Assembly: GCA_003667245.1 (NCBI GenBank)
Contig: RCNN01000068.1
Location: 62,001-126,000, forward strand
Source: Heterostelium multicystogenum
Lineage: Eukaryota; Evosea; Eumycetozoa; Acytosteliales; Acytosteliaceae
DNA length: 64,000 bases
Reading direction: 5' to 3'
Both the position numbers and the translations under genes were made by a program. Below the pieces are notes generated by a model. It made no database searches. It was not told the origin of the DNA and saw only the letters and a program-made list of their open reading frames with translations. Positions 8,904-60,809 of the stretch are shown piece after piece; the first letter of the stretch is position 1, and every line of letters begins with the position of its first letter.

Positions 8904-10878
8904 TTATTTTACAACTCTTGATGTTTCTTGGCTTTCGTTGTTGTTTGATTTCTGATTCAAAGATGGATCCAAACAGTACATAATCTCCAAAAGGAACGAA
9001 GAGTCTACATCGTTCAGTGTTCCGGTTGCAAGTACATCTTTATGATTCTTGGCAATGTATGTGATACAGGTCTTACGTAAGCTGGACAGTTTGTAAAAGT
9101 CTGATTGTTTGTAGAGTGCGACTACAGTGTCAAATTCAATACCTTCGATGGCCTTTGCCTCGCAGATAGTCTTTAGTCTGTCGATCATGTAAAGATCTGA
9201 GAGATGCAAAAGTGGAATGCAGTTCTCAAGTGTAACGATATTCTCATCTCCAGAGTAAATGTAACGCAACATTGTCTTAAAGTCGCTGTACTGCTCGTTC
9301 TTGATGACAATTTCTTTGTCGCCCGATTCCTTTAGTCCAGAGGTAAACATCGATTTGAAGTACCGATTACGCACAGATAGAATATTTCTATGTGCATGAA
9401 TTGGCTTATCTTGAACAATAAAAGTAACGTCGCTAAAGTATTCTTGAGCATTGTCGAAAAGCTCACAGAAGTCGAAGCGCATGCTGTCTTTAGGAATATG
9501 TACTTGAGATGGGAAAATAAACTCCCAAATGTCATTGTAATAGCAAGAAAGGTAGGTTCCACCATATAGTAACAAACGTGAACGTCCTCCAGATTCGAGA
9601 ACAATAGAGTTGCAACGACGACGTTTGGGTGGAGCCTCACATGGAATTTCGCTCCACTTCTCTGACTTGCAGTCAAATACAAAGAGATCACGCAAGAATC
9701 CACGCTTATTATATCCACCATATAGATATAGTTTATCTTCGAATGCATTGAGAGTGTGAGAGTGACGATCATAGGGAACTGGATCTTTTTGATCTTTTGT
9801 CTTATTGCTGACTAGTCTCCAGGTCTCAGTTTGGAGATTAAGTACCCAGAGATCGTTGTTTGATCTTCCTGTCTGGTCGTATCCACCAAAGTAATAGATA
9901 AATTTCTTATCCTCTGAAAGTTCATAGCTAGCTGCGGAACCAAGTCTTCCAAATTGTGGCGAATTAATCTGTCTCCATTTATTGGTAGCAATGTTGTAGA
10001 CTTCAGTTGTATTGAAGAACACTGAGAAGATAGATCCCTTTTGGTATATAGTTTGCGAGCCACCCATTATATAAATTTCGTCACCAACAACAACGGATGA
10101 GTGTCCATCACGAGGTTGATGCTCGCCAAGTGTTGTCCATTCATTAGTCAGGAAATCAAACTTCAACAATGTACCAATCGTCTTAAAGAGTTTCTTCGTG
10201 CTGGATGACCAAAAGTATGATGTCTTTTCGTCTTCATAGATACCACCTCCATAGATATACATAGCATTCTGGTGGACAATGGCAGTATGCAACACTCTGC
10301 TCGATACAGTTGTGCAAGGTAACGATTGCCAGGACATAGTCTCCAAGAACAATCTTTGGAAGTGGGAAAAGCCTGATTTCATCTCACTTCCCATCTCACT
10401 ACCACCAAACAAATAAAGATATCCTTGATACAGAACCAAAGAATTATCTATAGATAGATGTTAATTAGGGTCAATGATGTTATTGTCGAAAAAGATGGCT
10501 TGGAGAGCAGTTAACTTACCAAATCTAGGTGTTGGATTATTTGATGTTGGAACTATATTCCATTTGATTGGCTTGGGTTTGTCTTCATTTTCTTCATTTG
10601 GTGGGGGTGGTGATGATGTAGATGTGGTGGATGTGGATGTGGTGGATGTGGTGGATGTGGTATTTTCATTATTAGATAATGGGGTCAGATGATACTGAAA
10701 CTGGAGCTACAGTAGTAGTGGTAGTAGTGGTAGTACCTATGCTAGCAGCTGTTGTATTTAAAGATAAATCACCTATAGTAGAGGTAATATGAAAATGTAC
10801 ATTTTGATTTGAATCATCATTGTCATTGGCAATGTTGTCTGATTCACCAACAACCAAATTATCATTGATTGATTCCAT
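8904..10878 (-). CDS. Kelch-repeat BTB/POZ protein
   Basis: Exon 1 is 10878-10520 and exon 2 is 10447-8904; the intron 10448-10519 (72 nt) runs GTAAGT...CTATAG, phase 1. The protein of about 633 residues has a Thr/Ser/Pro low-complexity head (residues 1-120), six kelch repeats with Gly-Gly pairs (YLFGG, YIYGG, YIMGG, YYFGG, YLYGG, LLYGG; about 123-430), a BTB domain (about 447-550, with FSDVTFIVQDKPIHAHR and Y(F/K)SMF) and a BACK-like tail. Such proteins resemble LZTR1-type adaptors and commonly feed substrates to CUL3 ubiquitin ligases, so that role is inferred. Exon 1 needs one C removed from CCCC near 10682 to stay in frame, probably a homopolymer error. Confidence 0.85.
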
Positions 10879-17804: not shown

Positions 17805-19517
17805 ATGAAGTGTACTCTACATAATAAAGCATATGAATCGATATGTGACAAATGTAATGTATTGATGTGTACAAAATGTATCATCATTCATATCAAGGAA
17901 AATGATTCTTGTAATCAATACATTAATCATATCGATGATATGATCAGACTACATTTGAATAATGCACTCTTGGAGTCAGATAACACTGATCAAAATCAAA
18001 CAGAGACCAAAGAAAAAAGCACTTGATATAAAAGATACTCTCAGATCATTGTGGAGTTCATTAAAGTCATCGGTATCAGAAATCAAAGAGATCACAACAA
18101 ACAGAGAATGAGATATCAACAAAACACTTTGAACAATATCATCAATATCTCATCATTGAAGAACAAAGATTAAAGAATACAATGAAAGAGAACAAACAAT
18201 CATTGACTGATCGAATCGAAAACAACATCAATCAATTTGAAAATCTCATCAATATCATCAATATCAATAATCATTTGAATCATAACAATAATAATGATAA
18301 TACAACAGATGATAATCAAGATGGCAACACAACAAACAATGATAGCACTTCACAATACATGACAACAAATTGATATCATCAATGGAATCATGTTCATCTC
18401 TGTCATCATTCATCTTGAACAACAAACAAAACAATATTCAATGATCGATACAATCAAACGATATGATATCAATCAACTGATCAATCAATTCGACAATGAT
18501 CATCAATCAATGATTCTATATCTATTGAATCAATACAATCAATCATTCAATGACAAATCAATCGATGATATCAAACCAACAAATTCATATTCATTGACAA
18601 CCAAAGCAATCGATTCTGAATCAATGAAAATCAATCATCAAACAATCAATACAATTATCAATCAAATCAGAGACAACAAACAATGAAGATCATGATGATC
18701 ATTCAAACAAATCAACATATATCTTCACAACTCACACAAAGAAAGGAGCAACACTCATCAATGTTTCAAACAACAATTCAATCGAACAATTACAATTAGA
18801 TTATCATTTCTATGATACATTCTCATCAACTATCAGAGTTGATGAATATATCTATGTATTTGGTGGTGAGAATAATCGAAACAAATGGATTCGATTCTCA
18901 ATCAAATCTCAATCAATTGAACACATTGGTTACATGGATGGAATTGATCCTGACTTTTCCATATCAGTTTGTTATGATGGTCAAGATCATATCTATTTGG
19001 TTAATGGTGAAGAAAAAACACATCGATTGATCGATTCAACACCAGAACAATGACATTTGAAAGATATCATCAATTACCAAAACATTATGGTGGTGAACAA
19101 GTATCAACAATGATCTTGAATGGAATATTATATTCATTGCCACGTGATAAGAATATTCTATTTAGATTTGACTTGACAAACAAAACCATTTCAGAACATC
19201 AAATAGATTGCATACCATTCTCAGCATGTCATGACAACAATGGTCATTTCTTCATTCATTCAAAATTAGACAAATGTTTCATCAAATACAATGTCTTGAC
19301 CAAAGAAACAACCAAACTCAATCAAATACCTGCCAAAGATGGATATGTATTTCCAATTTACGATTGTGTATCAGCAACAGAGAGTTATATTTATTCATTT
19401 GGTGGTATCGACGATGGTAACTTCAAATATTCCATTGAGAATGATCAATCAGAACCAATCTATTTGGATGATCAATATAACAGATTTTGGTGTTCATCAA
19501 TTGTTTATTCAAAATAG
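17805..19517 (+). pseudogene. BBP gene 3, many small indels
   Basis: The protein is recognisable from MKCTLHNKAYESICDKC to WCSSIVYSK, but the frame changes repeatedly: after 18010 (GAAAAAAGCAC), 18100-18125, 18365, 18425-18460, 18575, 18640 and 19015-19030. Several changes are single extra A or C. The propeller from 19050 to 19517 is open. Variable-loop residues include THTKKGA, HYGGEQV, LPRDKNI and HSKLDK. The last 470 bp and the 3' flank match BBP gene 7, marking the left edge of the large duplication. With this many lesions it is probably a true pseudogene. Confidence 0.7.
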
Positions 19518-19535: not shown

Positions 19536-21356
19536 TCAAATAAGTATCAATAAATATTCGAATTCTGATGAGTTATGGGTGTGGGATCCTTCAGTGGACT
19601 TTGCATGCCTGATTGTGCGACCAGTGATCAAGCGATGAATGACCCAACGTTCGAAGCGTAATCCTCGCTCTTTGGTCGAAAGAACACTTGACAACGGTGG
19701 CAATGGAGAGGCAGTTCCAGAAAAGTGAAATTGAAACAAGGCCAAGAATGCTCCATAGCATGTTGAATGATAGGTTCCATCCTTTGGCTGGTAGTAAATC
19801 AGTCCATGATCGACGAAGGAACCAGGTGATTCTGGTTGTTGGTCATCCTTTGAGAAGAACCGATTGAGGAAGTGGAGATATACCTCAGCCCTGGCTGCAT
19901 TGCTTTGGATCTTTTCCCAGTATGAGAGAGTCTCAGGATAGAAGGTCTTGTTCTTCCTTGAGATGGCAAAGTCCATGGGATTGTCTGAAGATGTTGGGAG
20001 TTGTGACCATTGTTGGAGACAAAGGATCTCTCTTGGTGTTCCACCAGTGATGCGATGGAGCTCTCGCTGTTGCTCCTCGGTCTCTTGCCACTTGGAAGGA
20101 AGTGCAATTGGACCCCCTCTCTTGATTGCTAGGACGAATGAATCAAACGAGAATGGAGTGACATAGTGAAGCCAACGATCGAGGGCAGGTTGAAGGTTGT
20201 GTTCGAATTGAGAGTGAGCAGATCCAGAGATGAGAAGGATGGTTCTCTGACCTTGGAGTTCAGATGTGCCAGTGATGAAAGGTCTGAAGAATGGTCGCTG
20301 ATATGAGTATCGAACGGCTCCACCTGGTGTGTCAATTTGATTCTTCCAGAGCTCGTTGTGTTCATCTACTGCATAGACGACGGGTGACTTTGTGAATACT
20401 CGGAGTTGTTGATAGAGCTCATCACACACTTGAACTGCGAGTGGTTGATTCTTGATTCCAGTTCCGAGGTTGGCGAGATCAAGGAGGGTGGTTGCAGACG
20501 TGAATGTGGAGGAAGTGATTCTGATTTTTGAGGCACGGATCGCATTGAAGGAGATGAATCTATCCAAGAAGTATTGGGCTGCTTCCTCATCTGTCTTCTT
20601 CTTTGCCCATTCAAGTGTTCTTCCCTGTTAACATGTTGGTGAGTTCTCTGATATATGAGCATTATGGTAGGAAGTACTTACAATGTAGACAACAATGCAA
20701 TCGTTCACGTATGAAATGGAAGTGAGGAGATAGGATTCAAATGTCTTTCCACATCCATTTGGGCCTGACAAGATGATGCCGTTGTTCGAGTCTCCCTCTA
20801 CGTCCTTCTCTGACAACTTGATGCTGTTCCAGAACTTCATGACGAGGTCGTATCTCTGTTGTGTGAGAAGAAAGGAATCGAGTTGGCCAAGGTCTGGCCT
20901 CATCTCTTTGGGGAGGTATACCTTGGGGAATGTAGGCAACTGGATAGTCTTGCCGATCATTGACTTGAGAGAGTCAAGAGATCGCAAATGATCCCATTTG
21001 GGGTCATATCGGTCAGGAAGTGACGAGTCCTGTTGCTGCTCGGGCGCTATACACAAAGTCAGAACAATGAGCTTGGATGAATGATCATCATTGTACTACA
21101 TACGTATTGGTGTTGGTTGAATCTTCTCCTCGATAGGGATCTTAAGCTGCTGAAGGATCTTCAAGAGTTTGTTGAGGTTAGATGGAGTGAAGTTGTTGTT
21201 GTCGTCATTGAATGATGCAAAGTGACGCACTGCAGGAGCTTGGTGATGTAGATTCTGCTGAAGTAAAGTAATATCAGTGTCCGAATACAAAGATGGTATG
21301 ACTCTCTTGGAGAGAGAGAGGATGGCACGTCTTGATGATGATATCCTTGACAACAT
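19536..21356 (-). CDS. Crinkler/RHS-like P-loop NTPase, copy A, C-terminus truncated
   Basis: Three exons: 21356-21104, 21046-20682, 20624-19536. Introns are 57 nt each with GTATGT...TATAG and GTAAGT...AACAG. The 568-residue frame is intact. The N-terminus is Arg/Ser-rich and resembles a mitochondrial presequence (MLSRISSSRRAILSL). Walker A (GPNGCGKT, 179-186) and a Walker B of type VVYAVDEHNEL (about 290-298) are clear. The DEHNEL-type Walker B and the layout fit the Crinkler/RHS (CR) NTPase families, which usually carry a C-terminal restriction-like nuclease. Here that region is replaced by a few residues read from the 3' flank of BBP gene 3, owing to a deletion. Family assignment is from motif memory. 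Confidence 0.65.
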
Positions 21357-21984: not shown

Positions 21985-22431
21985 ATGTTGGAGATATACA
22001 AAAGAGAAGGTATGGTATTACAAGCATCCAAACAGATACTAAAGAATGAGCAGTCGCTGAGAGATGCGAATCCTAACGAGTATGGAGTGAATGGAGTCCA
22101 AAGTGGCGATCGTAGATATATAAAGAATGGATGGAAGAAGGCTGAAGCTGATGCATCTGAAGAATATCGATCAATGGCTGGAACTAAAAGAATCTTAGTT
22201 AGAAGCTATTTCAAGACTTTGATTCGACCAGTAGAGGCAACTTCATTGAATGACAAACTCCATCGTTGAGTTGGTGCTAAAGATTGATTTGCTGAATCAA
22301 TGATGGAGAATATGAACTCAATGAACTCCATATCCCCAGAATGTATGGAGTTGCCTAATGCCTTTGCAAAGACGCATTCGAAGTTGGCCAAACTCTTAGA
22401 TCTTGCATCGTCTTACGAAAAGATAGTGTGA
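21985..22431 (+). pseudogene. Ankyrin-family relic with internal inversion, copy A
   Basis: Starts MLEIYKREGMVLQASKQILK as in copy B at 37186. After ...DANPNEY the next 0.3 kb (about 22088-22395) is in reverse orientation relative to copy B. The piece encoding FECVFAKALGN and SLSFNEVASTGRIKVLK therefore reads on the minus strand here. No functional product is expected. Confidence 0.6.
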
Positions 22432-25990: not shown

Positions 25991-27740
25991 CTATTTTGAA
26001 TAAACAATTGATGCACACAAAAATCTGTTATATTGATCATCCAAATAGAATGGTTCTGATTGATCATTCTCAATTGAATATTTGAAGTTACCATAATCTT
26101 GACCACCAAATGAATAAATATAACTCTCTGTTGCTGATACACAATCGTAAATTGGATATACATATCCATTTTTGGCAGGTATCTGATTGAGTTTGCTTGT
26201 TTGTTTGGTCATGACATTGTATTTGATGAAACATTTATCTACTCTTGAATGAATGAAGAAATGACCATTGTTGTCATGACATGCTGAGAATGGTATGCAA
26301 TCTAATTGATGTTCTGAAATGGTTTTGTTTGTCAAGTCAAATCTAAATAGAATATTATTATCAAAAGACAATGAGTATAATATTCCATTCAAGATCATTG
26401 TTGATACTTGTTCACCATAATGTTTTGGTAATTGATGATATCTTTCAAATGTCATTGTTTTGATGTTGAATCGATCAATTCGATGTGTTCTAGAACCATT
26501 AACCAAATAGATATGATCTTGACCATCATAACAAACTGATATGGAAGTGTCAGGATCAATTCCATCCATGATACCAATGTGTTCAATTGATTGAGATTTG
26601 ATTGAGTATCGAATCCATATGTTTGGATTATTTAAACCACCAAATACATAGATATATTCATCAACTCTGATAATTGATGAGAATGTATCATCGAAATGAT
26701 AATCCAATTGTAATTGTTCGATTGAATTGTTGTTTGAAACATTGATGAGTGTTGCTCCTTTCTTTGTGTGAGTTGTGAAGATATATGTTGATTTGTTTGA
26801 ATGATCATCATGATCTTCATTGTTTGTTGTCTCTGATTTGATTGATAATTGTATTGATTGTTTGATGATTGATTCTATTGATTCAGAATCGAATGATTTG
26901 GTTGTCAATGAATATGAATGTTGTTTGATATCATCGATTGATTTGTCATTGAATGATTGATTGTATTGATTCAATAGATATAGAATCATTGATTGATGAT
27001 CATTGTCGAATTGATTGATCAGTTGATTGATATCATATCGTTGATTGTATCGATCATTGAATATTGTTTGTTTGTTGTTCAAGATGAATGATGACAGAGA
27101 TGAACATGATTCTATTGATGATATCAATGTTGTTGTCATGTATTGTGAAGTGCTATCATTGTTTTGTTGTCTTGACATCTTTATTATCATCTGTTGTATT
27201 ATCATTGTTGTTATTATTTAAATGATTATTGATATTGATGATATTGAGAAGATGTTTCAATTGATTGATGTTGTTCTCGATTCGATCAGTCAATGATTGT
27301 TTGTTCTCTTTCATTGTATTCTTTAATCTTTGTTCTTCAATGATGAGGTATTGATGATATTGTTCAAAGTGTTGTGATATCTCATTCTCTGTTGTTGTGA
27401 TTGATTGTATCTCTGATACCGATGACTTTAATGAACTCCACAATGATGACAGTATTTGTTTGAAAGTTAATTGGTCATTATTAATGTCATGGTTGGTGCT
27501 TATTGTTGTTGAATGATGATCTATGTCATCAAAGATATTGTTGTCATTTAATTGATTGACAATCTCATCGATATGTTCGCAATATCTTCCATGATCATGT
27601 GTTCTGTTGTGTATTGCAATACATTTCGAACACATCAATTGATTACACTTATGACAAATCAGTTCCAATGATTTATTGTGTTGTTGACATCGTGATTCGA
27701 TACCACTGTTTATCTCTATCTCTTCATGTGCTCTCTTCAT
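25991..27740 (-). CDS. BBP gene 4: B-box / coiled-coil / propeller protein, one frameshift
   Basis: Starts MKRAHEEIEINSGIESRCQQH at 27740, a longer N-terminus than other BBP proteins. It has a B-box (CQQHNKSLELICHKC, CSKC), a coiled coil, the conserved SQYMTTTL block and the propeller to TAG at 25991. A single indel near 27170-27200 in the Asn/Asp linker shifts the frame; otherwise about 580 residues are intact, so it could be a working gene. Variable-loop residues include THTKKGA, FGGLNNPN, VNGSRTH, HYGEQVS and HSRVDK. Its duplicate is BBP gene 8 (41236-42995). Confidence 0.75.
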
Positions 27741-28384: not shown

Positions 28385-28773
28385 ATGTCTGATAGTAGTA
28401 GTAATAATAACAAGCATCTAAAGTGTCAGATTCACAACAAAAGATATAAATTCATATGTTACAAATGCAACATATTGATGTGTTCAAGTTGTTTGTGGAA
28501 ACACTCAAAAGTACAACCTGATCATTCACTATACCTTGATGATGCAAAACAAATCAGAGAATCATGTAATAAAGATATCATTTATAACATAGATATAAAT
28601 AAGATCTTTGACAATAGCTGTTGTAAATAATTAATTAGAGTTATATTTATTCATTTTGTGGTAAAGACTGTGGTAACTTCAAGTATTCAATTGAGAATGA
28701 TCAATCAGAACCAATCTATTTGGATGATTCATTTAACAGATAATGGTGTGCATCAATTATTTATTAACAATAG
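28385..28773 (+). pseudogene. BBP gene 5: N-terminus joined to a C-terminal relic
   Basis: The first 230 bp encode the B-box start (MSDSSSNNNKHLKCQIH, CYKCNILMCSSC) as in gene 9. At about 28622 the sequence jumps to the end of the propeller (28636-28773), skipping about 1.4 kb. The remaining propeller end has a stop inside DDSFNR-(stop)-WCAS. That end matches neighbouring gene 6 (FCGKDCGNFKYS-type residues) rather than gene 9, so it probably arose by recombination with gene 6. Confidence 0.75.
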
Positions 28774-29269: not shown

Positions 29270-30970
29270 CTATTTTGAATAAACAATTGATGCACACCAA
29301 TATCTGCTAAATGGATCATCCAAATAGATTGGTTCTGATTGATCATTCTCAATTGAATACTTGAAGTTACCACAGTCTTTACCACAAAATGAATAAATAT
29401 AACTCTCTGTTGCTGATACACAATGGTAAATTGGAAATACTCCATTTTTGGCAGGTATCACATTGAGTTTGGTTGTTTGTTTGGTCATGACATTGTATTT
29501 GATGAAACATTTATCTTCGATAGAATGAATGAAGAAATGACCATTGTTGTCATGACATGCTGTGTGTATTCTGCAATCCAATTGTTGTTTTGAAATGGCT
29601 TTGTTTGTCAAGTCAAATCTAAATAGAATATTCTTATCACGTGGCAATGAATATAATATTCCATTCAAGATCATTGTTGATACTTGTGCGCCATAATGTT
29701 TTGATAATTTATGATATCTTTCAAATGTCATTGTTTTGATGTTGAATCGATCAATTCGATGTGTATTATAACCATTAACCAAATAGATATGATCTTGACC
29801 ATCATAACAAACTGATATGTCACTTTTAGGATCAATTCCATCCATATCACCAATGTGTTCAATTGATTGAGATTTGATTGAGAATCGAATCCATATGTTT
29901 CGATTAAAATAACCACCAAATACATAGATATGTTCATCAACTCTGATAATTGATTGGAATGTACCATTGAAATCATAATCAAATTGTAATTGTTCGATTG
30001 AATTGTTGTTTGAAATATTGATGAGTGTTGCTCCTTTATATGAGTGTGTTGTTAAGATATATGTTGATTTGTTTGAATGATGATCTTCATTGTTTGTTGT
30101 CTCTGATTTGATTGATAATTGTATTGATTGTTTGATGATTGATTTCATTGATTCAGAATCGATTGCTTTGGTTGTCAATGAATATGAATGTTGTTTGATA
30201 TCATCGATTGTTTTGTCATTGAATGATTGATTGTATTGATTCAATAGATATAGAATCATTGATTGATGATCATTGTCGAATTGCTTGGTGAGTTGATTGA
30301 TATCATAATGGTTATTGTATCGACGATTAAATATTGTTTGTTTGTTGTTCGAGATGAATGATGTCAGTGATGAAGAAGACTGTATTGATGATATCAATGT
30401 TGTTGTCATGTATTGTGAAGTTGTATCATTGTCTGTTGTGTTGTCATCTTGATTATCATCTGTTGTATTATCATTATTGTTGTTGTGGGTGCTGTTGTTA
30501 TTCCAATGATTATTGATATTGATGATATTGATGAGATGTTTCAATTGATTGATGTTGTTCTTGATTCGATCAGTCAATGATTGTTTGTTCTCTTTCATTG
30601 TATTCTTTAATCTTTGTTCTTCAATGATGAGATATTGATGATATTGTTCAAAGTGTTGTGATATCTCATCCTCTGTTGTTGTGATCTTATTGATTTCTGA
30701 TACCGATGACTTTAATGAACTCCACAATGATCTGAGAGTATCTTTGATATCAAAGTGCTTTTCGTTGGTCTCTGTTTGATTTTGATCAGTGTTATCTGAC
30801 TCCAAGAGTGCATTATTCAAATGTAGTCTGATATCATCGATATGATTAATGTATTGATGACAAGAATTATCATTTTCCTTGATATGAATGATGATACATT
30901 TTGTACACATCAATACATTACATTTGTCACATATCGATTCATATGCTTTATTATGTAGAGTACACTTCAT
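29270..30970 (-). CDS. BBP gene 6: intact B-box / coiled-coil / beta-propeller protein, 566 aa
   Basis: The only fully open BBP member in the window and the reference for the family. The B-box is at about 3-45 (C3, H6, C14, C17, C22, C25, then His/Cys). A helical region is at about 75-150 (SLWSSLKSSVSEIN, QHFEQYHQYLIIEEQRLK). An Asn/Asp/Thr linker (150-183) and a conserved helical block (184-305) follow. The kelch-like propeller spans about 305-566, with strands such as HIYVFGG, HIYLVNG, SYIYSFCG. There is no RING, so it is TRIM-like without ligase activity of its own; binding-adaptor is the likely role. Residues at 310-312, 333-338, 354-359, 374-385, 401-402, 427-428, 443-446, 466-469, 483-486, 508-511, 528-533 and 553-558 differ from paralogs. 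Confidence 0.85.
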   Translation of the reverse strand: MKCTLHNKAYESICDKCNVLMCTKCIIIHIKENDNSCHQYINHIDDIRLHLNNALLESDNTDQNQTETNEKHFDIKDTLRSLWSSLKSSVSEINKITTTEDEISQHFEQYHQYLIIEEQRLKNTMKENKQSLTDRIKNNINQLKHLINIININNHWNNNSTHNNNNDNTTDDNQDDNTTDNDTTSQYMTTTLISSIQSSSSLTSFISNNKQTIFNRRYNNHYDINQLTKQFDNDHQSMILYLLNQYNQSFNDKTIDDIKQHSYSLTTKAIDSESMKSIIKQSIQLSIKSETTNNEDHHSNKSTYILTTHSYKGATLINISNNNSIEQLQFDYDFNGTFQSIIRVDEHIYVFGGYFNRNIWIRFSIKSQSIEHIGDMDGIDPKSDISVCYDGQDHIYLVNGYNTHRIDRFNIKTMTFERYHKLSKHYGAQVSTMILNGILYSLPRDKNILFRFDLTNKAISKQQLDCRIHTACHDNNGHFFIHSIEDKCFIKYNVMTKQTTKLNVIPAKNGVFPIYHCVSATESYIYSFCGKDCGNFKYSIENDQSEPIYLDDPFSRYWCASIVYSK

Positions 30971-31155: not shown

Positions 31156-32336
31156 TAATAGCCAAACACCTGCACAAACACATAAAAGTTGACACAAACT
31201 GATGCAAGACAATCAACGTGGATTCAAGATTTCCAAGAGTTTATCTAAGCTTGACAACGGATACAATCGACTTGGCAGCCATTCTATCGCATCGATTTCA
31301 TTATTCTTGATCGCATAGTCATATACTTTCACTGTACATCCCTCCGTTCGTTAATAAAGTTATCTTGTTGACCTCAGAATGAAAGACGCTCTCCAAGATT
31401 CCTAGCTTCAGAAATTATTCTCAGTCACATGCCAAATGAATCCAAGAAACATGGTCTCATCGTACGGTCCTCTTTTGGTACCGTAAAGATAAGGAGTAAA
31501 ACCATTTTCCGACACTTCTCTATTATCCTTTGGTGTAACATAGTTTGTATCTCTTCCAAAACGAGGTGCCAACGAAGTTGATCGTTGCTTTGAGGAAATG
31601 GGGGGAAAACAACAATTTGAATTTTTTACTTTTATATCATTTGAATGAATTTTATCAAGACAGCTATGGGGAGGAATATGAAATCAAATAGATTCTGAAA
31701 ATTGGCTATTATACCTGGTGACTCCAGATCATAACCATTCTGGGATCTCTTTTGTGATATCATGTAAAATTTCTTTGAATGTTTCAGCAAGGTTGAGTAT
31801 GGTACGATTGCATCTTCTTAATATAGTTGATACACCTCTTTAAGCTTTTGCAGGATATCTATCTTACTTCAACACAGTTAGTGTTAAAGGTCATATACTG
31901 TCTTCTGATCTTATTTTGGTAGTTTTTTGTTCATCTTCATTGAGTGGAATGTACTCTTGAGTGATCTTCAAAGCTTATTAAGTTTCTTGATCTAACGATC
32001 TACCTTTGCAATTAGATGTTTATTTTGGTGTTCCTGTTCCATTCTTTCATTACTTGCTTATGACTTTGTAACCTTAATTATAGATTAAAATCAAAATGAC
32101 AGCAAATCATTGGCCACAATAAATATTCATAATTATTTGGATGTATTTGATTGATTACTTTGTTTTGAGTACATTTATTAGGTTCCAAGAAACCTATCTC
32201 TACTTTTTGCTTTTTGTTTTAATTTTGATCAAGATTTATTTGCTTCTGTTTGATGTTCTATTGTTTATTGTTAATGTTAGCAATTTAATGAGATAGAAAA
32301 CTAATTATAATAATCAGAATAATAGTAATTAGAATA
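31156..32336. pseudogene. Shuffled relic module between BBP genes 6 and 7
   Basis: Made of pieces also found at 48886-50063 but in another order and orientation. C (31156-31352) reads on the minus strand as an ankyrin-like end (EGCTVKVYDYAIKNNEIDA, WLPSRLYPL). A (31359-31598) reads on the minus strand as a short C-terminus (RFGRDTNYVTPKDNREVSE, LYGTKRGPYDET). D (31599-31698) and B (31701-32197) are inverted, and E (32197 on) is the BBP gene 7 promoter. B contains a coding-like stretch (ILQKLKEVYQLYQEDA). No piece is an intact gene and I do not recognise A or B. Confidence 0.65.
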
Positions 32337-34063
32337 ATGCAAGAAAACTCAAACTATAACCATGTTTGTCAAGAACATAATAAGACTCTTAAATATATTT
32401 GCTATCAATGTAATCGATTGATGTGTAGTGTATGTTTTTATGATCACTTCAAACGTCACACTGATCATTCAACACAATGTGAACATATCAATGAGATAAC
32501 ACAATCTTTGAATCACAATACAATCTATAACATCGATAGTATCAATATCAATCAACAAGAGAACAATAATAATAATAGTAATGACAATTATAAAGATAGT
32601 TCATCATCAAGAGAAGATTAGAGAGTATTTGGAAAACATTGAAAGCATTATCATCTGAATACATCAGTTTAACAGCAACTGAGAATGAAATCAGAGAGCA
32701 ATTCAAACAGATCTATAAGTATATCATGGAACAAGAACGTCTATTGACAAGAGATATCACCAATCACAAACAATCAATCGAACAAATCATATCAAACAAC
32801 ATCGATCATCTCAAACAAATCGATAATATAGTGAATATCATCGATCACAATCAACATGAAACCAATGATAATCATGATGATGATATATCATCAACTGTAA
32901 CTGATACCACCTCACAATACATGACAACAACATTGATGTCATCAATAGAATCATGTTCATCACTGTCATCATTCATCTTGAACAACAAACAAACAATATT
33001 CAATGATCGATACAATCAACGATATGATATCAATCAACTGATCAATCAATTCGACAATGATCATCAATCAATGATTCTATATCTATTGAATCAATACAAT
33101 CAATCATTCAATGACAAAGCAATCGATGATATCAAACAACATTCATATTCATTGACAACCATACCAATCGATTCTGAATCAATACAATCAATCATCAAAC
33201 AATCAATACAATTATCAATCAAATCAGAGACAACAAACAATGAAGATCATCATTCAAACAAATCAACATATATCTTCACAACACACTATGAGAAAGGAGC
33301 AACACTCATCAATGTTTCAAACAACAATTCAATCGAACAATTACAATTAGATTATCATTTCTTTAGTACATTCTCATCAATTATCAGAGTTGATGAATAT
33401 ATCTATGTATTTGGTGGTTCGAATAATCCAAACAAATGGATTCGATACTCAATCAAATCTCAATCAATTGAACTCATTGGTGACATGAATGGAATTGATC
33501 CTGACTTTTCCATATCAGTTTGTTATGATGGTCAAGATCATATCTATTTGGTTAATGGTTTGAGTACACATCGAATTGATCGATTCAACATCAGAACAAT
33601 GACATTTGAAAGATATCATCAATTACCACAACATTATGGCACACAAGTATCAACAATGATCTTGAATGGAATATTATATTCAGTGTCATTAAATAAGAAT
33701 ATTCTATTTAGATTTGACTTGACAAACAAAACCATTTCAGAACATCAATTAGATTGCAGACCATACACAGCATGTCATGACAACAATGGTCATTTCTTCA
33801 TTCATTCAAAATTAGACAAATGTTTCATCAAATACAATGTCTTGACCAAAGAAACAAACAAACTCAATCAGATACCTGCCAAAGATGGATATGTATTTCC
33901 AATTTACGATTGTGTATCAGCAACAGAGAGTTATATTTATTCATTTGGTGGTCAAGATTATGGTAACTTCAAATATTCAATTGAGAATGATCAATCAGAA
34001 CCAATCTATTTGGATGATCAATTCAGCAGATTTTGGTGTGCATCAATTGTTTATTCAAAATAG
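32337..34063 (+). CDS. BBP gene 7: B-box / coiled-coil / propeller protein, one frameshift
   Basis: Starts MQENSNYNHVCQEHNKTLK. It has a B-box (CQEHNKTLKYICYQC, CSVC), Asn linker, coiled coil (EQFKQIYKYIMEQERLL), SQYMTTTL block and propeller, ending WCASIVYSK at 34063. One T is missing near 32603 (gene 11 has TTCATTCATC where this has TTCATCATC); with it the protein is one frame of about 575 residues. The first 600 bp are almost identical to gene 11, including the promoter, while the propeller loops differ (THYEKGA, FGGSNNPN, VNGLSTH, HYGTQVS, SVSLNKN). Its 3' end is the right edge of repeat unit 1 and the left edge of unit 2. Confidence 0.75.
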
Positions 34064-34388: not shown

Positions 34389-36510
34389 CTAATTGAGAGC
34401 AATCTTGAGGTCTTCTTCACATGATCTTCCATCGATGATGATCATGTTCTTGAAGTTGGAGGTGTCATTCATAGTTGTTGTGACATAGATGAACTTGGCT
34501 TCGACTCCATCGCAGTCCAAAAACAAGAGTGTCGTCCTTGACAGATGAATGGCACTCCTTTCCAGTGACTCCAGTGACGATTGTTTCAACAAGTGATCTC
34601 GTGTGTGATTTGTTGGGATATCCTCGGTTCATAGACTTCCATGTTCTACCTTTACCATCTTTGGCTTTGTCATGATCTTTGAAACTGGAGATTGACACTT
34701 GAATGAAGTGGGCGCTCGATGATTGGGAGATGGAGGGTGTGGATCCTTCAGTAGACTTTGCATGCATGATTGTGTGACCAGTGATCAAGCGATGAATGAC
34801 CCAACGTTCGAAGCGTAAATCCTCGCTCTTTGGTCGAAAGAACACTTGACAACGGTGGCAATGGAGAGGCAGTTCCAGAAAAGTGAAATTGAAACAAGGC
34901 CAAGAATGCTCCATAGCATGTTGAATGATAGGTTCCATCCTTTGGCTGGTAGTAAATCAGTCCATGATCGACGAAGGAACCAGGTGATTCTGGTTGATGG
35001 TCATCCTTTGAGAAGAACAGATTGAGGAAGTGGAGATATACCTCAGCCCTGGCTGCATTCCTTTGGATCTTTTCCCAGTATGAGAGAGTCTCAGGATAGA
35101 AGGTCTTGTTCTTCCTTGAGATGGCAAAGTCCATGGGATTGTCTGAAGATGTTGGGAGTTGTGACCATTGTCGGAGACGAAGGATCTCTCTTGGTGTTCC
35201 ACCAGTGATGCGATGAAGCTCTCTCTGTTGCTCCTCGATCTTTTGCCACTTGGAAGGAAGTGCAATTGGACCCCCTTCTTTGATTGCAAGGACGAATGAA
35301 TTGAACGAGAATGGAGTGACATAGTGAAGCCAACGATCCAGTGCAGGTTGAAGGTTGTGTTCGAATTGAGAGTGAGCAGAACCAGAGATGAGAAGGATGG
35401 TTCTCTGACCTTGGAGTTCAGATGTGCCAGTGATAAAAGGACTGAAGAATGGTCGCTGATATGGGTATCGAACGGCTCCACCTGGTGTGTCAATTGGATT
35501 CTTCCAGAGCTCGTTGTGTTCATCTACTGCATAGACGACGGGTGACTTTGTGAATACTCGGAGTTGTTGATAGAGCTCATCACACACTTGAACTGCGAGT
35601 GGTTGATTCTTGATTCCAGTTACGAGGTTGGCGAGATCAAGGAGGGTGGTTGCTGACGTGAATGTGGAGGAAGTGATTCTGATTTTTGAGGCACGGATCG
35701 CATTGAAGGAGATGAATCTATTCAAGAAGTATTGGGCTGCTTCCTCATCTTTCTTCTTCTTTGCCCATTCAAGTGTTCTTCCCTGTTAACATGTTGGTGA
35801 GTTCTCTGATATATGAGCATTATCATCTGGTAGGAAGTACTTACAATGTAGACAACAATGCAATCGTTCACGTATGAAATGGAGGTGAGGAGATAGGATT
35901 CAAATGTCTTTCCACATCCATTTGGGCCTGACAAGATGATTCCGTTGTTCGAGTCTCCCTCTACGTCCTTCTCTGACAACTTGATGCTGTTCCAGAACTT
36001 CACGACGAGGTCGTATCTCTGTTGTGTGAGAGGAAAGGAATCGAGTTGGCCAAGGTCTGGCCCCATCTCTTTGGGGAGGTATACCCTGGGGAATGTAGGC
36101 AACTGGATAGTCTTGCCGATCATTGACTTGAGAGAGTCAAGAGATCCCATTTGGGGTCATATCGGTCAGGAAGTGACGAGTCCTGTTGCTGCTCGGGTGC
36201 TATACAGTAAAGTCAGAACAATGAGCTTGGATGAATGATCATCATTGTACTACATACGTATTGGTGTTGGTTGAATCTTCTCCTCGATAGGGATCTTAAG
36301 CTGCTGAAGGATCTTCAAGAGTTTGTTGAGGTCAGACGGAGTGAAGTTGTTGTTGTCGTCATTGAATGATGCAAAGTGACGCAATGCAGGAGCTTGGTGA
36401 TGTTGATTCTGCTGAAGTAAAGTAATATCAGTGTCCGAATACAAAGATGGTATGACTCTCTTGGAGAGAGAGAGGATGGCACGTCTTGATGATGATATCC
36501 TTGACAACAT
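34389..36510 (-). pseudogene. Crinkler/RHS-like P-loop NTPase with C-terminal nuclease-like region, copy B
   Basis: Exons 36510-36258, 36199-35845 and 35782-34389, with introns of 58 and 62 nt at the same sites as copy A. Walker A (GPNGCGKT) and the DEHNEL Walker B are intact. Unlike copy A it continues for about 180 more residues; the end contains FIQVSISSFKDHDK and a DGVEAKFIYV segment that could be the acidic and Lys positions of a restriction-like nuclease core, an inference. Frame is lost by a 10-nt deletion in exon 2 (near 36146), one extra T near 34819 and an A-run indel near 34515. It is described here as found. Confidence 0.65.
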
Positions 36511-37185: not shown

Positions 37186-37640
37186 ATGTTGGAGAATATA
37201 CTAAGAGAAGGTATGGTATTACAAGCATCCAAACAGATACTAAAGAATGAGCAGTCGCTGAGAGATGCGAATCCTAACAAGTATGTAGTGAGTTTGGCCA
37301 ACTTCGAATGCGTCTTTGCAAAGGCATTAGGCAACTACATACATTCTGGGGATATGGAGTTCATTGAGTTCATATTCTCCATCATTGATTCAGCAAATCA
37401 ATCTTTAGCACCAACTCAACGATGGAGTTTGTCATTCAATGAAGTTGCCTCTACTGGTCGAATCAAAGTCTTGAAATAGCTTCTAACTAAGATTCTTTTA
37501 GTTCCAGCCATTGATCGATATTCTTCGGATGCATCAGCTACAGCCTTCTTCCATCCATTCTTTATATATCCACGATCGCCACTTTGGGCTCCAACTACAT
37601 ACTTACGAAAAGATAGTGTGTGAAAAGATCTGAACATCTC
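37186..37640 (+). pseudogene. Ankyrin-family relic, copy B
   Basis: Reads MLENILREGMVLQASKQILK, FECVFAKALGN, MEFIEFIFSIIDSAN, SLSFNEVASTGRIKVLK, then TAG where a Trp (TGG) is expected in this repeat type, and continues in the same frame (LLTKILLVPAIDRYSSD) to about 37615. The segment 37290-37593 is flanked by the 11-bp inverted repeats AAGTATGTAGT and ACTACATACTT and is inverted in copy A. Confidence 0.55.
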
Positions 37641-41235: not shown

Positions 41236-42995
41236 CTATTTTGAATAAACAATTGATGAACACCAAAATCTGTTATATTGATCATCCAAATAGATTGGTT
41301 CTGATTGATCATTCTCAATTGAATATTTGAAGTTACCATATTCTTTACCACCAAATGAATAAATATAACTCTCTGTTGCTGATACACAATCGTAAATTAG
41401 AAATACTTCATCATCTTTGGCAGGTATCTGATTGAGTTTGGTTGTTTGTTGAGTCAAGACATTGTATTTGATGAAACATTTATCTTGGATAGAATTAATG
41501 AAGAAATGACCATTGTTGTCATGACATGCTGAGAATGATATGCAATGCAATTGATGTTCTGAAATGGTTTTGTTTGTCAAGTCAAATCTAAATAGAATAT
41601 TATTATCAAAAGACAATGAGTATAATATTCCATTCAAGATCATTGTTGATACTTGTGGACCATAATGTTGTGGTAATTGATGATATCTTTCAAATGTCAT
41701 TGTTTTGATGTTGAATCGATCAATTCGATGTGTTTCTTCACCATTAACCAAATAGATATGATCTTGACCATCATAACAAACTGATATGGAAAGTCAGGAT
41801 CAATTCCATCCATGTAACCAATGTGTTCAATTGATTGAGATTTGATTGAGAATCGAATCCATTTGTTTCGATTATTCCAACCACCAAATACATAGATATA
41901 TTCATCAACTCTGATAATCGATTCGAATGTATAATTGAAATCATAAATCCAATTGTAATTGTTCGATTGAATTGTTGTTTGAAACATTGATGAGTGTTGC
42001 TCCTTTATTATCATGTGTTGTGAAGATATATGTTGATTTGTTTGAATGATGATCTTCATTGTTTGTTGTCTCTGATTTGATTGATAATTGTATTGATTGT
42101 TTGATGATTGATTTCATTGATTCAGAATCGATTGCTTTGGTTGTCAATGAATATGAATGTTGTTTGATATCATCGATTGTTTTGTCATTGAATGATTGAT
42201 TGTATTGATTCAATAGATATAGAATCATTGATTGATGATCATTGTCGAATTGATTGATCAGTTGATTGATATCATATCGTTGATTGTATCGATCATTGAA
42301 TATTGTTTGTTTGTTGTTCAAGATGAATGATGACAGTGATGAACATGATTCTATTGATGATATCAATGTTGTTGTCATGTATTGTGAAGTGTTATCAATG
42401 TCTGTTGTCCTGTCATCTTGATTATCATCTGTTGTATTATCATTATTATTATTATTATCATTGTTGTTGTTGTTCAATGATTATTGATATTGATGATATT
42501 GATGAGATGTTTCAATTGATTGATGTTGTTCTCGATTCGATCAGTCAATGATTGTTTGTTCTCTTTCATTGTATTCTTTAATCTTTGTTCTTCAATGATG
42601 AGATATTGATGATATTGTTCAAAGTGTTGTGATATCTCATTCTCTGTTGTTGTGATTGATTGTATCTCTGATACCGATGACTTTAATGAACTCCACAATG
42701 ATGACAGAATTTGTTTGAAAGTTAATTGGTCATTCATATTGTCTTGGTTGGTGCTTATTGTTGTTGACTGATGATCGATGTCATCAAAGATATTGTTGTC
42801 ATTTAATTGATTGACAATCTCATCGATATGCTCGCAATATTTTCCATGATCATGTGTTCTGTTGTGTATTGCAATACATTTCGAACACATCAATTGATTA
42901 CACTTATGACAAATCAGTTTCAATGATTTATTGTGTTGTTGACATCGTGATTCGATACCATTGTTTATCTCTATCTCTTCATGTGCTCTTTTCAT
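41236..42995 (-). pseudogene. BBP gene 8, three frameshifts
   Basis: Duplicate of gene 4, starting MKRAHEEIEINNGIESRCQQH at 42995 and ending at 41236 (WCSSIVYSK). Frame breaks occur in the Asn linker near 42475, near 41945 (extra A), and near 41790 where AAAA became AAA. The variable loops differ strongly from gene 4 even though the rest is nearly the same: THDNKGA, FGGWNNRN, VNGEETH, HYGPQVS, INSIQDK, DDEVFLI. That contrast is the clearest within-duplication example of loop-specific divergence. Confidence 0.75.
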
Positions 42996-43670: not shown

Positions 43671-45492
43671 TGTCTGATAGTAGTAGTAATAATAACAAAC
43701 ATCTAAAGTGTCAGATTCACAACAAAAGATATAAATTCATATGTTACAAATGCAACATATTGATGTGTTCAAGTTGTTTGTTGAATCACTCAAAAAGAAC
43801 AACCTGATCATTCACTATACCTTGATGATGCAAAACAAATCAGAGAATCATGTAATAAAGATATCATTTATAACATAGATCTAAATAAGATTATTGACAA
43901 TAGCTGTTGTAATAATAATAATACTAATAATAATAGTAATGATGATGATAATGAGCGTAATAAAAGTACATTTATCAAGGATCGAGTCAAATCAATTTGG
44001 AGATCATTGAAATCATCATCATCTAAATATAGTTCATGCTCAGCAACAGAGAAGGAGATAACTGATCATTTCGAAACAGATCTACAAATACATTTCACTC
44101 CAAGAGCATCAACTGAAGAGAGAGATCCTCCACGACAAAGAAACACTCGAACAATCGATATCTGATGATATCAATCACCTCAAACATTTGGATACAATCA
44201 TCAATATCATTGATAATCTAAATAAATCAATACATTGACAACAACAAGCATATTATCGATGATAAAGGCAATGCTGATCATAATTCAGAGTCAACAGACA
44301 ATGATACATCCTATCAGTACATGACAACTAAAATAATATCATCAATAGAATCATGTTCATCTCTGTCATCATTCATCTTGAACAACAAACAAACAATATT
44401 CAATGATCGATACAATCAACGATATGATATCAATCAACTGATCAATCAATTCGACAATGATCATCAATCAATGATTCTATATCTATTGAATCAATACAAT
44501 CAATCATTCAATGACAAAACAATCGATGATATCAAACAACATTCATATTCATTGACAACCAAAGCATTCGATTCTGAATCAATACAATCAATCATCAAAC
44601 AATCAATACAATTATCAATCAAATCAGAGACAACAAACAATGAAGATCATGATGATCATTCAAACAAATCAACATATATCCTGACAACATGCTTGAATAA
44701 TGGAGCAACACTCATCAATGTTCAAACAACAATTCAATCGAACAATTACAATTGGATTATGATTTCAATTATACATTACAATCAATTATCAGAGTTAATG
44801 AATATATCTATGTATTTGGTGGTTATCATAATCAAAACAAATGGATTCGATTCTCAATCAAATCTCAATCAATTGAACTCATTGGTGATATGGAAGGAAT
44901 TGATCATGACTATTACATATCAGTTTGTTATGATGGTCAAGATCATATCTATTTGGTTAATGGTAAAAGCACTCATCGAATTGATCGATTCAACATCAAA
45001 ACAATGACATTTGAAAGATATCATCAATTACCACAACATTATGGTCTACAAGTATCAACAATGATCTTGAATGGAATATTATATTCAGTGTCATTTAATA
45101 ATATTCTATTTATATTTGACTTGACGAACAAAACCATTTCAGAACATCGATTCGATTGCAGACCATTCACAGCATGTCATGACAACAATGGTCATTTCTT
45201 CATTCATTCTATCGAAGATAAATGTTTCATCAAATACAATGTTTTGACCAAAGAAACAACCAAACTCAATATGATACCTGCCAAATTTGGATTAGTATTT
45301 CCAATTTACCATTGTGTATCAGCAACAGAGAGTTATATTTATTCATTTGGTGGTAAAGATTTTGGTAACTTCAAATATTCAATTGAGAATGATCAATCAG
45401 AACCATTCTATTTGGATGATCAATTTAGCAGAGGTTGTTGTGCATCAATTGTTTATTTAAAATCAAATAATATCAATCGGAATAAGGTATAA
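43671..45492 (+). pseudogene. BBP gene 9, several indels and a lost stop
   Basis: Starts MSDSSSNNNKHLKCQIH. Frame is disturbed by an extra A near 43793, an extra A near 44074, a deletion near 44237 and a missing T near 44720. The propeller from 44752 is open. The usual ...IVYSK-stop is changed (TTTAAAATCAAA), so the frame runs on for SNNINRNKV before TAA at 45492. Loops include CLNNGA, VNGKSTH, HYGLQVS and AKFGLVF. Its 3' flank, including AATATCAATCGGAATA, is shared with gene 11 and not with the other BBP genes. Confidence 0.7.
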
Positions 45493-46766: not shown

Positions 46767-48491
46767 CTAATTTGAATAAACAATTGATGAACACCAAATT
46801 CTGTTAAATGGCTCCGAATAGATTGGTTCTGATTGATCATTCTCAATTGAATATTTGAAGTTACCATAATCTTTACCACCAAATGAATAAATATAACTCT
46901 CTGTTGCTGATACTCGATGATAAATTGGAAATACATATCCATCTTTGGGCAGGTATCTGATTGAGTTTGCTTGTTTGTTGAGTCAAGACATTGTATTTGA
47001 TGAAACATTTATCATAGAAAGAATGAATGAAGAAATGACCATTGTTGTCATGACATGCTGTGAATGGTATGCAATGCAATTGATGTTCTGAAATGGTTTT
47101 GTTTGTCAAGTCAAATCTAAATAGAATATTATTATCACGTGGCAATGAATATAATATTCCATTCAAGATCATTGTTGATACTTGTTCACCACCATAATGT
47201 TTTGGTAATTGATGATATCTTTCAAATGTCATTGTTTTGATGTTGAATCGATCAATTCGATGTGTTCGATAACCATTAACCAAATAGATATGATCTTGAC
47301 CATCATAACAAACTGATATGAAATAGTCACGATTAATTCCTTCCATGATACCAATGTGTTCAATTGATTGAATTTGATTGAGATTCGAATCCATTTGTTT
47401 GGATTATGATAACCACCAAATACATAGATATATTCATCAACTCTGATAATGATGGAATGTACCCCAGAATTTATAATCTAATTGTAATTGTTCGATTGAA
47501 TTGTTGTTTGAAACATTGATGAGTGTTGCTCCTTTATTCCGGTGTGTTGTGAAGATATATGTTGATTTGTTTGAATGATGATCTTCATTGTTTGTTGTCT
47601 CTGATTTGATTGATAATTGTATGATTGTTTGATGATTTGATTGTATTGATTCAGAATCGATTGCTTTGGTTGTCAATGAATATGAATGTTGTTTGATATC
47701 ATCGATTGATTTGTCATTGAATGATTGATTGTATTGATTCAATAGATATAGAATCATTGATTGATGATCATTGTCGAATTGATTGATCAGTTGATTGATA
47801 TCATATCGTTGATTGTATCGATCATTGAATATTGTTTGTTTGTTGTTCAAGATGAATGATGACAGAGATGAACATGATTCTATTGATGATATCAATGTTG
47901 TTGTCATGTATTGTGAAGTGCTATCAATGTCTGTTGTGTTGTCATCTTGATTATCATCTGTTGTATTATCATTATTATCACTGTTGTTGTTGTTGTTGTT
48001 GCTGCTGCTGTTGTTGTTATTCAAATGATTATTGATATTTGATAATATTGATGAGATGTTTCAATTGATTGATGTTGTTCTCCGATTCGATCAGTCAATG
48101 ATTGTTTGTTCTCTTTCATTGTATTCTTTAATCTTTGTTCTTCAATGATGAGATATTGATTGATATTGTTCAAAGTGTTGTGATATCTCATCCTCTGTTG
48201 TTGTGATCTTATTGATTTCTGATACTGATGACTTTAATGAACTCCACAATGATCTGAGAGTATCTTTGATATCAAAGTGCTTTTCTTTGGTCTCTGTTTG
48301 ATTTTGATCAGTGTTATCTGACTCCAAGAGTGCATTATTCAAATGTAGTCTGATATCATCGATATGATTAATGTATTGATTAACAAGAAATCATTTTCTT
48401 GATATGAATGATGATACATTTTGTGGCACATCAATACATTACATTTGTCACATATCGATTCATATGCTTTATTATGTAGAGTACACTTCAT
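46767..48491 (-). pseudogene. BBP gene 10, many indels
   Basis: Partner of gene 6 in the second duplicated block, sharing its promoter element and MKCTLHNKAYESI start at 48491. Frame is broken near 48425, 48390, 48160, 48085, 48040, 47640, 47450, 47370 and 46945, and the end reads IVYSN instead of IVYSK. The propeller is still readable: THRNKGA, GINRDYF, VNGYRTH, HYGGEQV, LPRDNNI, HSFYDK. Probably a true pseudogene given the lesion count. Confidence 0.7.
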
Positions 48492-48797: not shown

Positions 48798-50063
48798 ATG
48801 GATAAAATCTTTGACATTCTTGTCAAAATTATTGATATGGTAAATGCAGAGTTGGTGTTTGAAGATAAGTATATGCCAGTACCAAGTTATCTTGTTGACC
48901 TCAGAATGAAGAAGCTCTCCAAGATTCCTAGCTTCAGAAATTATTCTCAGTCACATGTCAAAATGAATCCAAGAAACATGGTCTCATAGTACGGTTCCTC
49001 TTTTGGTACCGTAAAGATAAGGAGTAAAACCATTTTCCGAGACTTCTCTATTATCCTTTGGTGTAACATAGTTTGTATCTCTTCCAAAACGAGGTGACAA
49101 CGAAGTTGATCGTTGCTTTGAGGAAAATAGTGATAGGTTTCTTGGAAGCTAATAAATGTACACAAAACAAAGTAATCAATCAAAATACATCCAAATAATT
49201 ATGAATATTTATTGTGGCCAATGATTTGCTGTCATTTTGATTTTAATCTATAATTAAGGTTACATCATAAGCAAGTAATGAAAGAATGGAACAGGAACAC
49301 CAAAAATAAACATCTAATTGCAAAGGTAGATCGTTAGATCAAGAAACTTAATAATCTTTGAAGATCACCCAAGAGTACAGTCCACTCGATGAAGATGAAC
49401 AAAAAAACTACCAAAAAATATGATCAGAAGACAGTATATGACCTTTAACACTAACTGTGTTGAAGTAAAGATAGATATCCTGCAAAAGCTTAAAGAGGTG
49501 TATCAACTATATCAAGAAGATGCAATCGTACCATACTCAAACCTTGCTGAAACATTCAAAGAAATTTTACATGATATCACAAAAGAGATCCCAGAATGGT
49601 TATGATCTGGAGTCACCAGGTATAATAGCCAAACACCTGCACAAACACACAAAAGTTGACACAAACTGATGCAAGACAATCAACGTGGATTCAAGATTTC
49701 CAAGAGTTTATCTAAGCTTGACAACGGATACAATCGACTTGGCAGCCATTCTATCGCATCGATTTCATTATTCTTGATCGCATAGTCATATACTTTCACT
49801 GTACATCCCTCCGTTCGTTTTCAGAATCTATTTGATTTCATATTCCTCCCCATAGCTGTCTTTGATAAAATTCATTCAAATGATATAAAAGTAAAAAATT
49901 CAAAATTGTTGTTTTCCCCCCATCTCTACTTTTTTGCTTTTTGTTTTAATTTTGATCAAGATTTATTTGCTTCTGTTTGATGTTCTATTGTTTATTGTTA
50001 ATGTTAGCAATTTAATGAGATAGAAAACTAATTATAATAATCAGAATAATAGTAATTAGAATA
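48798..50063. pseudogene. Relic module between BBP genes 10 and 11
   Basis: Order A (48886-49127), B (49131-49622), C (49623-49819), D (49819-49920), E (49922-50063, gene 11 promoter). The same pieces occur at 31156-32336 rearranged. A short plus-strand start (MDKIFDILVKIIDMVNAEL) at 48798 runs into A and stops at 48989. B on the plus strand carries ILQKLKEVYQLYQEDA and FKEILHDITKEIPEWL. C on the minus strand is the ankyrin-like end EGCTVKVYDYAIKNNEIDA. None is intact. Confidence 0.6.
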
Positions 50064-59983: not shown

Positions 59984-60809
59984 AACTGTTTCCATTTTTT
60001 TTATTACATATTATTCTATAAATATACATTTTCATAAAATGTATAATAAATCAAAACAATAAGAAGATCCCTTAAATTAATAACCAATTAAAAATACCAA
60101 ATAAATACAAATTTGTACGAACTTACAAAATAATACTAATAATATTAATTTTTTATACATCTATTATTTATTCTTTCTAATTACTAATATATAATTATAG
60201 ATAACATTATAGTTTGGATCTTACTTAAAATTTTGCCTATTTTACTTTAGCTATTTGCAAGTATTTCCAAATTTAAAGATTAATAATAATAATAAAATCA
60301 ATCAACTCTATTTTTTATTTGAAATTGACCAGTCAGTGGGTTTAAAATAAAAGTAAACTTTTTGTTTTACAACGATGTATTTTGGGTGAAATGCTTACCA
60401 TTTTTAACATAATACCAAATGATCATCTCTATTATTTGATTGAAGCTGTGTGTTGTTGTTAAGTGTTTGTTTAAAATAATATTTTAATTTAATTTAAAAT
60501 TTGATTTTATTTAATACTATTTTTGTATATTAAATTTATTATTTTGATATTGTATAATCCATCCATTGAGTAATGTGGTTTTTTGAAACGTTATTGATTA
60601 TTGATTATTATTGATTATTATTTTATATGGTTGATTTGATTCGACATGAAACAATAGTAGTTCTAATTAGTAACAATCTAATCATCTTACTTTAGTTTTA
60701 TAATTATACTTCTTTTTAATAATATCATCTAAATCTTGATATATATTATATTATATTTTTAATTTAATTCCTAGTTGTAGAATTAATTAATTATTTATTT
60801 ATTTCCAAA
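59984..60809. other. Intergenic region
   Basis: About 825 bp of very AT-rich spacer between the two paralogs, with TTATTGATTATTATTGATTATTA-type short reiterations near 60590-60620. No gene seen. Confidence 0.5.

Follow-up and report, generated by a model that had tools for sequence, protein, structure and literature searches.

In teleost fish, the finTRIM proteins are described as an expanded B-box/coiled-coil family in which variable loops of the C-terminal ligand domain are under positive selection, and the selected sites in the head loops of their B30.2 domain are reported to be congruent with those of TRIM5alpha (PMC2657112). The Caenorhabditis F-box (DUF38) and MATH adaptors are described as large, lineage-expanded sets with positively selected sites in the substrate-binding domain, and some of them are reported to be induced by virus and microsporidian infection (PMC5392922). 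By analogy, these two systems are the closest in principle to a gene of the amoeba Heterostelium multicystogenum that we analyzed in a stretch of 64,000 nucleotides (nt), hereafter the window (assembly GCA_003667245.1, contig RCNN01000068.1, forward-strand positions 62,001 to 126,000). This intact gene, P0001, is an uninterrupted open reading frame (ORF) on the minus strand at 29270-30970 of the window and encodes a 566-amino-acid B-box / coiled-coil / kelch propeller protein. The first-pass annotation, made from the sequence alone, had singled out 29270-30043, which is indeed the propeller half of this ORF. The data showed positive selection at particular sites of one propeller face, and the gene is probably a member of a large, rapidly diversifying, TRIM-like but RING-less recognition family, the targets of which may be foreign or fast-changing.

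The finTRIMs are described as vertebrate proteins that combine a RING with B30.2, whereas the amoeba family has a kelch propeller, no RING that could be found, and variation in all six blades. The nematode adaptors are built from other domains, and the amoeba protein gave no F-box or MATH match in Pfam. Unlike the BTB-kelch proteins (KLHL/Keap1), the amoeba family has a B-box and a coiled coil, with no BTB found, and its loops are hypervariable among the paralogs of one genome. The HNWD proteins of Podospora, which are WD40-NLRs, likewise form a recombining gene family with diversity in a recognition domain of the propeller type; however, these STAND proteins are reported to rearrange near-identical repeat arrays (PMC2873952), whereas the amoeba blades are distinct and point replacements dominate. 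Within the dictyostelids, the B-box/FNIP family is hugely expanded, with 241, 381, 206 and 55 genes listed for four species (PMC4334915, Table 2), and the size of the FNIP repertoire has been compared with that of the variable lymphocyte receptors of lampreys (PMC9525666). These are also B-box proteins expanded in the same organism group, but their C-terminal half is described as a FNIP leucine-rich repeat, not a kelch propeller (PMC4334915).

Two of these comparisons, with TRIM variable loops and with fungal WD40-NLR repeats, had been drawn in the first-pass annotation. The former stood as to architecture, with a B-box followed by a coiled coil and a family profile that matches TRIM25 and TRIM39 (the TRIM25 match spans profile positions 5-145), but not as to the RING; the latter held as an analogy and nothing beyond it. 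A 2018 review lists one TRIM protein in Dictyostelium discoideum, a TRIM37 ortholog (PMC5758549). No description of a B-box/kelch family was found among the literature matches listed, which covered few subscription journals. We rate the principle as known, and the scaffold, the organism group and the unusually complete use of one propeller face as new.

The B-box zinc finger of the focal protein lies at residues 1-46 (30833-30970, minus strand), where the ligands follow the pattern C-x2-H-x7-C-x2-C-x4-C-x2-C-x3-H-x8-H. The Pfam zf-B_box match was below the cut-off in this protein (E 0.012) and across three window members (E 0.012 to 7e-5). The focal protein nevertheless has the ligand pattern, as do 33 of the 48 relatives of 500-620 amino acids that are annotated, in which it begins at residue 3-21. 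One long helix, assigned by DSSP on the model, forms the coiled coil at residues 75-161 (30488-30748, minus strand), and the model of a relative from Heterostelium album has it at 78-171; a coiled coil thus follows the B-box, and it may form dimers. The C-terminal half of the protein is a kelch match in Pfam. AlphaFold2, run with a 56-row alignment, gave a six-bladed kelch fold of 24 strands at residues 303-565 (29276-30064, minus strand) with a predicted local distance difference test score of about 95, while the whole-chain predicted template modelling score was 0.52, so the relative placement of the domains is unsure. B30.2 was not present, with kelch in its place (Pfam scan and model), and Pfam scans of the focal protein gave no BTB, FNIP, STAND NTPase or WD40 match, and no further match above the cut-off; FNIP was also absent from the other window members scanned. 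For the RING, there was no Pfam match in the 10 window ORFs scanned, and a RING-like pattern was absent in three frames from about 450-680 nt upstream of nine of the amoeba's own genes, although an exon farther upstream is possible.

The genome assembly searched comprises 29.7 Mb in 528 contigs. A DNA search with the focal gene gave 91 candidates, of which 40 were scored; apart from the gene itself these were 87-92% identical. We fetched 84 loci (83 distinct, several small matches being left out), and 71 rows (70 distinct) with more than 500 nt of propeller were placed in one alignment. For the site counts, 28 uninterrupted propellers were collected, some of them short at an end. Four divergent ones (L050, L051, L056 and L063) were removed before sites were counted, and the 24 closest, several incomplete at an end, were kept.

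Residue entropy showed two short peaks per propeller blade. The 27 most variable residues of the 24 propellers include, in the B-C loops (all coordinates on the minus strand), 310 and 311 in blade 1 (30038-30043), 354, 355 and 357 in blade 2 (29900-29911), 401 and 402 in blade 3 (29765-29770), 444 and 445 in blade 4 (29636-29641), 484 and 485 in blade 5 (29516-29521), and 532 and 533 in blade 6 (29372-29377). In the D-A loops they include 335 and 336 between blades 1 and 2 (29963-29968), 383 and 384 between 2 and 3 (29819-29824), 424 and 428 between 3 and 4 (29687-29701), 465 and 467 between 4 and 5 (29570-29578), 504 and 509 between 5 and 6 (29444-29461), and 553, 555 and 557 between 6 and 1 (29300-29314). 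The remaining residue is 463. The twelve variable places named in the first-pass annotation were recovered with an offset of 0-3 residues, and the residues it had quoted at the motifs TH-X and HYG-X were right in the three copies compared: S/A in the focal gene, T/E in the copy at 25991 and Y/T in the copy at 32.5-34.1 kb. Its description of the propeller DNA as nearly identical was too strong, the framework being only about 90% identical. Length is mostly kept, as it had said (10 gap cells of 5520 over residues 330-559), but small in-frame insertions and deletions (indels) do occur, for example near 426 and 510. The strings formed by the 27 sites were distinct in 28 of 28 propellers, and pairs among the 24 differed at 14-26 of the 27 sites (median 22). 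In the variable codons, each of the three positions varies and all four bases occur; nothing pointed to templated adenine mutagenesis as in diversity-generating retroelements, in view of this spread over positions and bases.

In a propeller fold, the B-C and D-A loops lie on one shared face. On the model of the focal protein, the B-C loops and the D-A loops each had 13 of the 27 sites, and the last one ended a D strand; none of the 44 residues of the A-B and C-D loops was among them. Fisher tests of this placement gave 3.6e-13 when all propeller residues were counted and 5e-6 when the loop residues alone were. The first-pass prediction of a single face therefore agrees with 26 of 27 sites of the 566-residue member. 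A separate model of the H. album protein P0002, with entropies taken from H. album alone, placed 25 of 27 sites in loops of the B-C or D-A type, and no site fell on any of the 41 residues of the other loops. None of the three outcomes that the first-pass annotation had named as refuting was observed, and with the selection and the recurrence in a second species described below, it is well supported that the variable B-C and D-A loops of all six blades form a recognition surface.

Relatives of the focal gene were examined in H. album. All 52 matches in a protein search with the focal gene were proteins of H. album PN500, and 24 proteins of the 55 listed made up the comparison set. Outside Heterostelium, protein search gave one Acytostelium relative; a profile search gave none, by a method that needs shared words so that distant ones may escape it, and none of 65 pattern matches in a search for viral relatives was confirmed. 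Of the top 27 variable sites, 19 were common to both species (hypergeometric p=9e-17), so the pattern is not due to chance, and per-residue variability in the two species was correlated (Spearman 0.54 over 264 residues). In a tree of 87 propellers, the 28 H. multicystogenum propellers formed one clade (100/90), and 23 of the 24 H. album proteins fell inside a clade of 24 H. album rows (100/100), P0034 not being in the tree; five more divergent propellers of the H. multicystogenum genome were placed elsewhere. Because the close copies of the two species lie in separate clades and yet share sites, the two lineages either diversified the same surface separately or maintained its diversity.

Selection was measured as the ratio of nonsynonymous to synonymous rates (dN/dS, omega in the codon models), with sites chosen from H. 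album so that the choice was unbiased by the H. multicystogenum data. In the H. multicystogenum copies these sites had an omega of 2.64 (likelihood ratio 28.0), against 0.50 for the other 236 residues. When each of the six blades had its own tree, so as to accommodate recombination between them, omega was 1.99 at the chosen sites (likelihood ratio 14.7) and 0.45 at residues in neither species' set; among the 24 copies with blade trees, omega was 0.47 for same-face residues in neither set and 0.38 for the opposite face. In the comparison of the 14 closest copies, the framework dS was 0.07, and the chosen sites had a dN of 0.55 and a local dS of 0.19, so that dN was 3.0 times the local dS and 8.0 times (7.0-9.2) the framework dS. 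The earlier suggestion of a diversified surface was thus borne out with one tree and with six, dN/dS at the variable sites being above 1 and far above the framework.

The copies also appear to have been recombined. DNA identity between them jumps sharply from about 0.5-0.7 to about 0.9, near the coiled-coil start for L001 versus L006, near residues 165-180 for L001 versus L024, and near nt 630 of L006 for L006 versus L025. In eight copies with similar propellers, the B-boxes were 39-91% and the coiled coils 40-97% identical in amino acids. One propeller half is thus joined to B-boxes of at least four types and to coiled coils of two or three, a natural domain swapping, and recombination or gene conversion between paralogs would be the simplest cause of the sharp domain boundaries. 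In 13 copies, likeness beyond the stop codon is down to background level about 60-90 nt on, a result that speaks neither for nor against retroposition as the origin of the copies.

Taken as a mechanism, the preferred reading of a TRIM-like recognition family would run as follows. The B-C/D-A face would bind the target directly, as in KLHL/Keap1, and each paralog would bind a different target of its own. Through the B-box and coiled coil the proteins may dimerise or oligomerise and so link binding to an effector step, which could be a recruited ubiquitin ligase, autophagy or sequestration. The targets would be foreign or fast-changing, with ingested or invading microbes, viruses or mobile elements as their most likely source. 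The framework would be held alike by recombination or gene conversion, while selection would hold the loops different.

Several observations weigh against this reading. All 87 loop residues of the variable face together had an omega of 0.96, not above 1, which places the positive-selection signal in particular sites of the face and confines it to them. The framework dN/dS of about 0.8 among the 14 closest copies indicates weak recent constraint. Single-site tests were weak because only 24 sequences were available: 11 of 26 chosen sites had p<0.1, including residue 532 in the opposite direction, and nine residues outside the chosen set also scored as positively selected. In 24 H. album proteins, 13 of the 40 most variable residues were N-terminal, in the B-box, coiled coil and linkers. 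Inside the propeller, a compatibility test showed no decay with distance (p 0.92, 19 copies), and recombination is therefore claimed for the domain boundaries only. Neither a RING nor a BTB, through which a ubiquitin ligase could be engaged, was found in the Pfam scans, and paralog divergence alone cannot separate non-self recognition from the recognition of many endogenous targets. Most copies are frame-broken: frameshifting indels, counted against the focal gene in a gapped alignment that inflates them for divergent copies, numbered zero in 8 of 71 rows, one in 14 and two or more in 49. Conserved CCT/Cpn60 genes of the same assembly are also split into overlapping frames (for example, two pieces on contig C65 that overlap in the DNA). 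For that reason, frameshifts were not accepted as proof of pseudogenes; the split genes suggest uncorrected assembly indels, so that counts of broken genes need care, and assembly errors or introns probably account for part of the breaks.

A stronger form of the preferred reading is a germline, intracellular, antibody-like repertoire, in which dozens of RING-less TRIM-like receptors would have twelve propeller loops diversified codon by codon, maybe helped by a higher local mutation rate. Conversion would keep their frameworks homogeneous, and these would be shuffled among several B-box/coiled-coil signalling heads. We regard this form as possible but speculative.

It is unlikely that the paralogs are endogenous adaptors whose diversity serves to bind many different host proteins, such as those turned over under regulation during development. 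KLHL kelch domains are reported to bind diverse endogenous peptides via these same loops (PMC6720452), and the purifying selection on residues outside the variable sets (omega about 0.45 in the 24 copies) would suit such a role. However, fixed targets favour conserved orthologs, yet the close copies of each species lie in separate clades and no two of the 28 loop strings agree, and the sites replaced again and again are common to both species, which suggests that the change continues.

The first-pass annotation had also raised allorecognition, in which the loops would signal strain or clone identity like TgrB1/TgrC1 and act in kin discrimination at aggregation. D. discoideum, a social amoeba, is reported to recognise self via polymorphic tgrB1/tgrC1 (PMC4118049), chtB, described as an FNIP-repeat gene, is a social gene in that species (PMC3559258), and many distinct loop strings would suit identity tags. 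In contrast, the modelled B-box/coiled-coil/kelch architecture, with no other Pfam match above the cut-off, suggests a cytoplasmic protein and not a surface adhesion molecule, and dozens of paralogs per genome are more in keeping with a repertoire than with two matched self partners. Defence against invaders accounts for the data at least as well, and we consider a role in allorecognition rather improbable.

A mutator focused on the loop codons or their near surroundings, with selection only filtering its products, would explain why pairwise counts gave a dS of 0.19-0.25 at the sites, about three times the 0.07 of the framework, and why 49% of the codon differences at variable sites involve two or three bases, versus 17% elsewhere. 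Codons adjoining the variable ones also had about threefold the framework synonymous diversity in same-amino-acid pairs (0.13 versus 0.043, permutation p 0.002, leaving out codons sandwiched between variable ones), and this excess dropped within two codons of the variable sites. Counts of polymorphic neighbour codons were less clear: 12 of 33 (p 0.006) with sandwiched codons included, but not significantly enriched when these were omitted (8 of 28 versus 30 of 199, p 0.10) or with the H. album-chosen sites (10 of 36 versus 32 of 196, p 0.11). The codon model gave the sites a synonymous rate that was only slightly raised (1.3 versus 0.8-1.1). Raised synonymous diversity in neighbours is expected from linkage to diversified sites, since diversifying selection with recombination lifts it as well, although a local mutator would give it too. 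The roughly threefold excess of dN over local dS requires selection in any case, and focal hypermutation as the main cause is very improbable.

Relaxed loops, pseudogene decay or assembly error would accord with the broken frames of most copies, with the framework dN/dS of about 0.8 among the closest copies, and with a divergence from the focal gene outside the variable codons that at third positions does not exceed that at first and second ones (seven lesion-free copies), but such an origin is scarcely credible, because drift predicts a dN/dS of 1 and not 2 to 3, the opposite-face loops and remaining same-face residues stay at 0.38 and 0.47, and the same sites are variable in H. album. Sequencing error was rejected as a cause of the variable sites, since the breaks in the assembly are indels and the pattern recurs in the annotated proteins of a second species. 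Pseudogene decay was rejected as a cause of the site variation, as the number of lesions did not track variable-site divergence (Spearman -0.06, 45 copies); its correlation with third-position divergence was weak (Spearman 0.31, p 0.04).

The window holds twelve family places, namely 11 copies and one fragment. Besides the focal gene, the propeller is uninterrupted in the copies at 25991-27740 (minus strand; ORFs 25991-27205 and 27156-27740) and 32483-34063 (plus), from about residue 320 in the copy at 44074-45463 (plus), and from about residue 322 in the copy that leaves the window edge at 62703-64000 (plus). The frame is interrupted in this assembly in the copies at 1382-3072, 4013-5784, 17805-19517 and 50064-51785 on the plus strand and at 41236-42995 and 46767-48384 on the minus strand. 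The fragment, a propeller C-terminus, lies at 28636-28767 (plus). A different kelch gene adjoins the family: the minus-strand ORF 8904-10439 encodes 511 amino acids with kelch repeats and then a BTB (Pfam E 9e-48 and 2e-23).

Outside the family genes, two inverted block pairs are 96-97% identical (31702-32206 with 49124-49632, and 22079-22395 with 37290-37603); as probable dispersed repeats, they could favour rearrangements in the cluster. A direct pair, 59114-59985 with 60996-61880, is 75% identical, and one ORF inside it has a weak sub-threshold Pfam hit. The minus-strand ORFs 19536-20567 and 34748-35725 have weak, below-cut-off matches to the same positions of Pfam DAP3 and are perhaps another repeated gene or element. 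FNIP repeats gave at least 168 matches in the same genome, where two expanded repeat families thus coexist.

The twelve same-face loops that co-vary in two species are a natural data set for the design of propeller binders. Heterostelium-type amoebae would offer a tractable laboratory system for the targets of intracellular receptors and for twelve-loop diversification with the frame kept. If the preferred reading of a TRIM-like recognition family is true, receptor diversification of the finTRIM/TRIM5 kind would have arisen outside animals as well, on a kelch scaffold.
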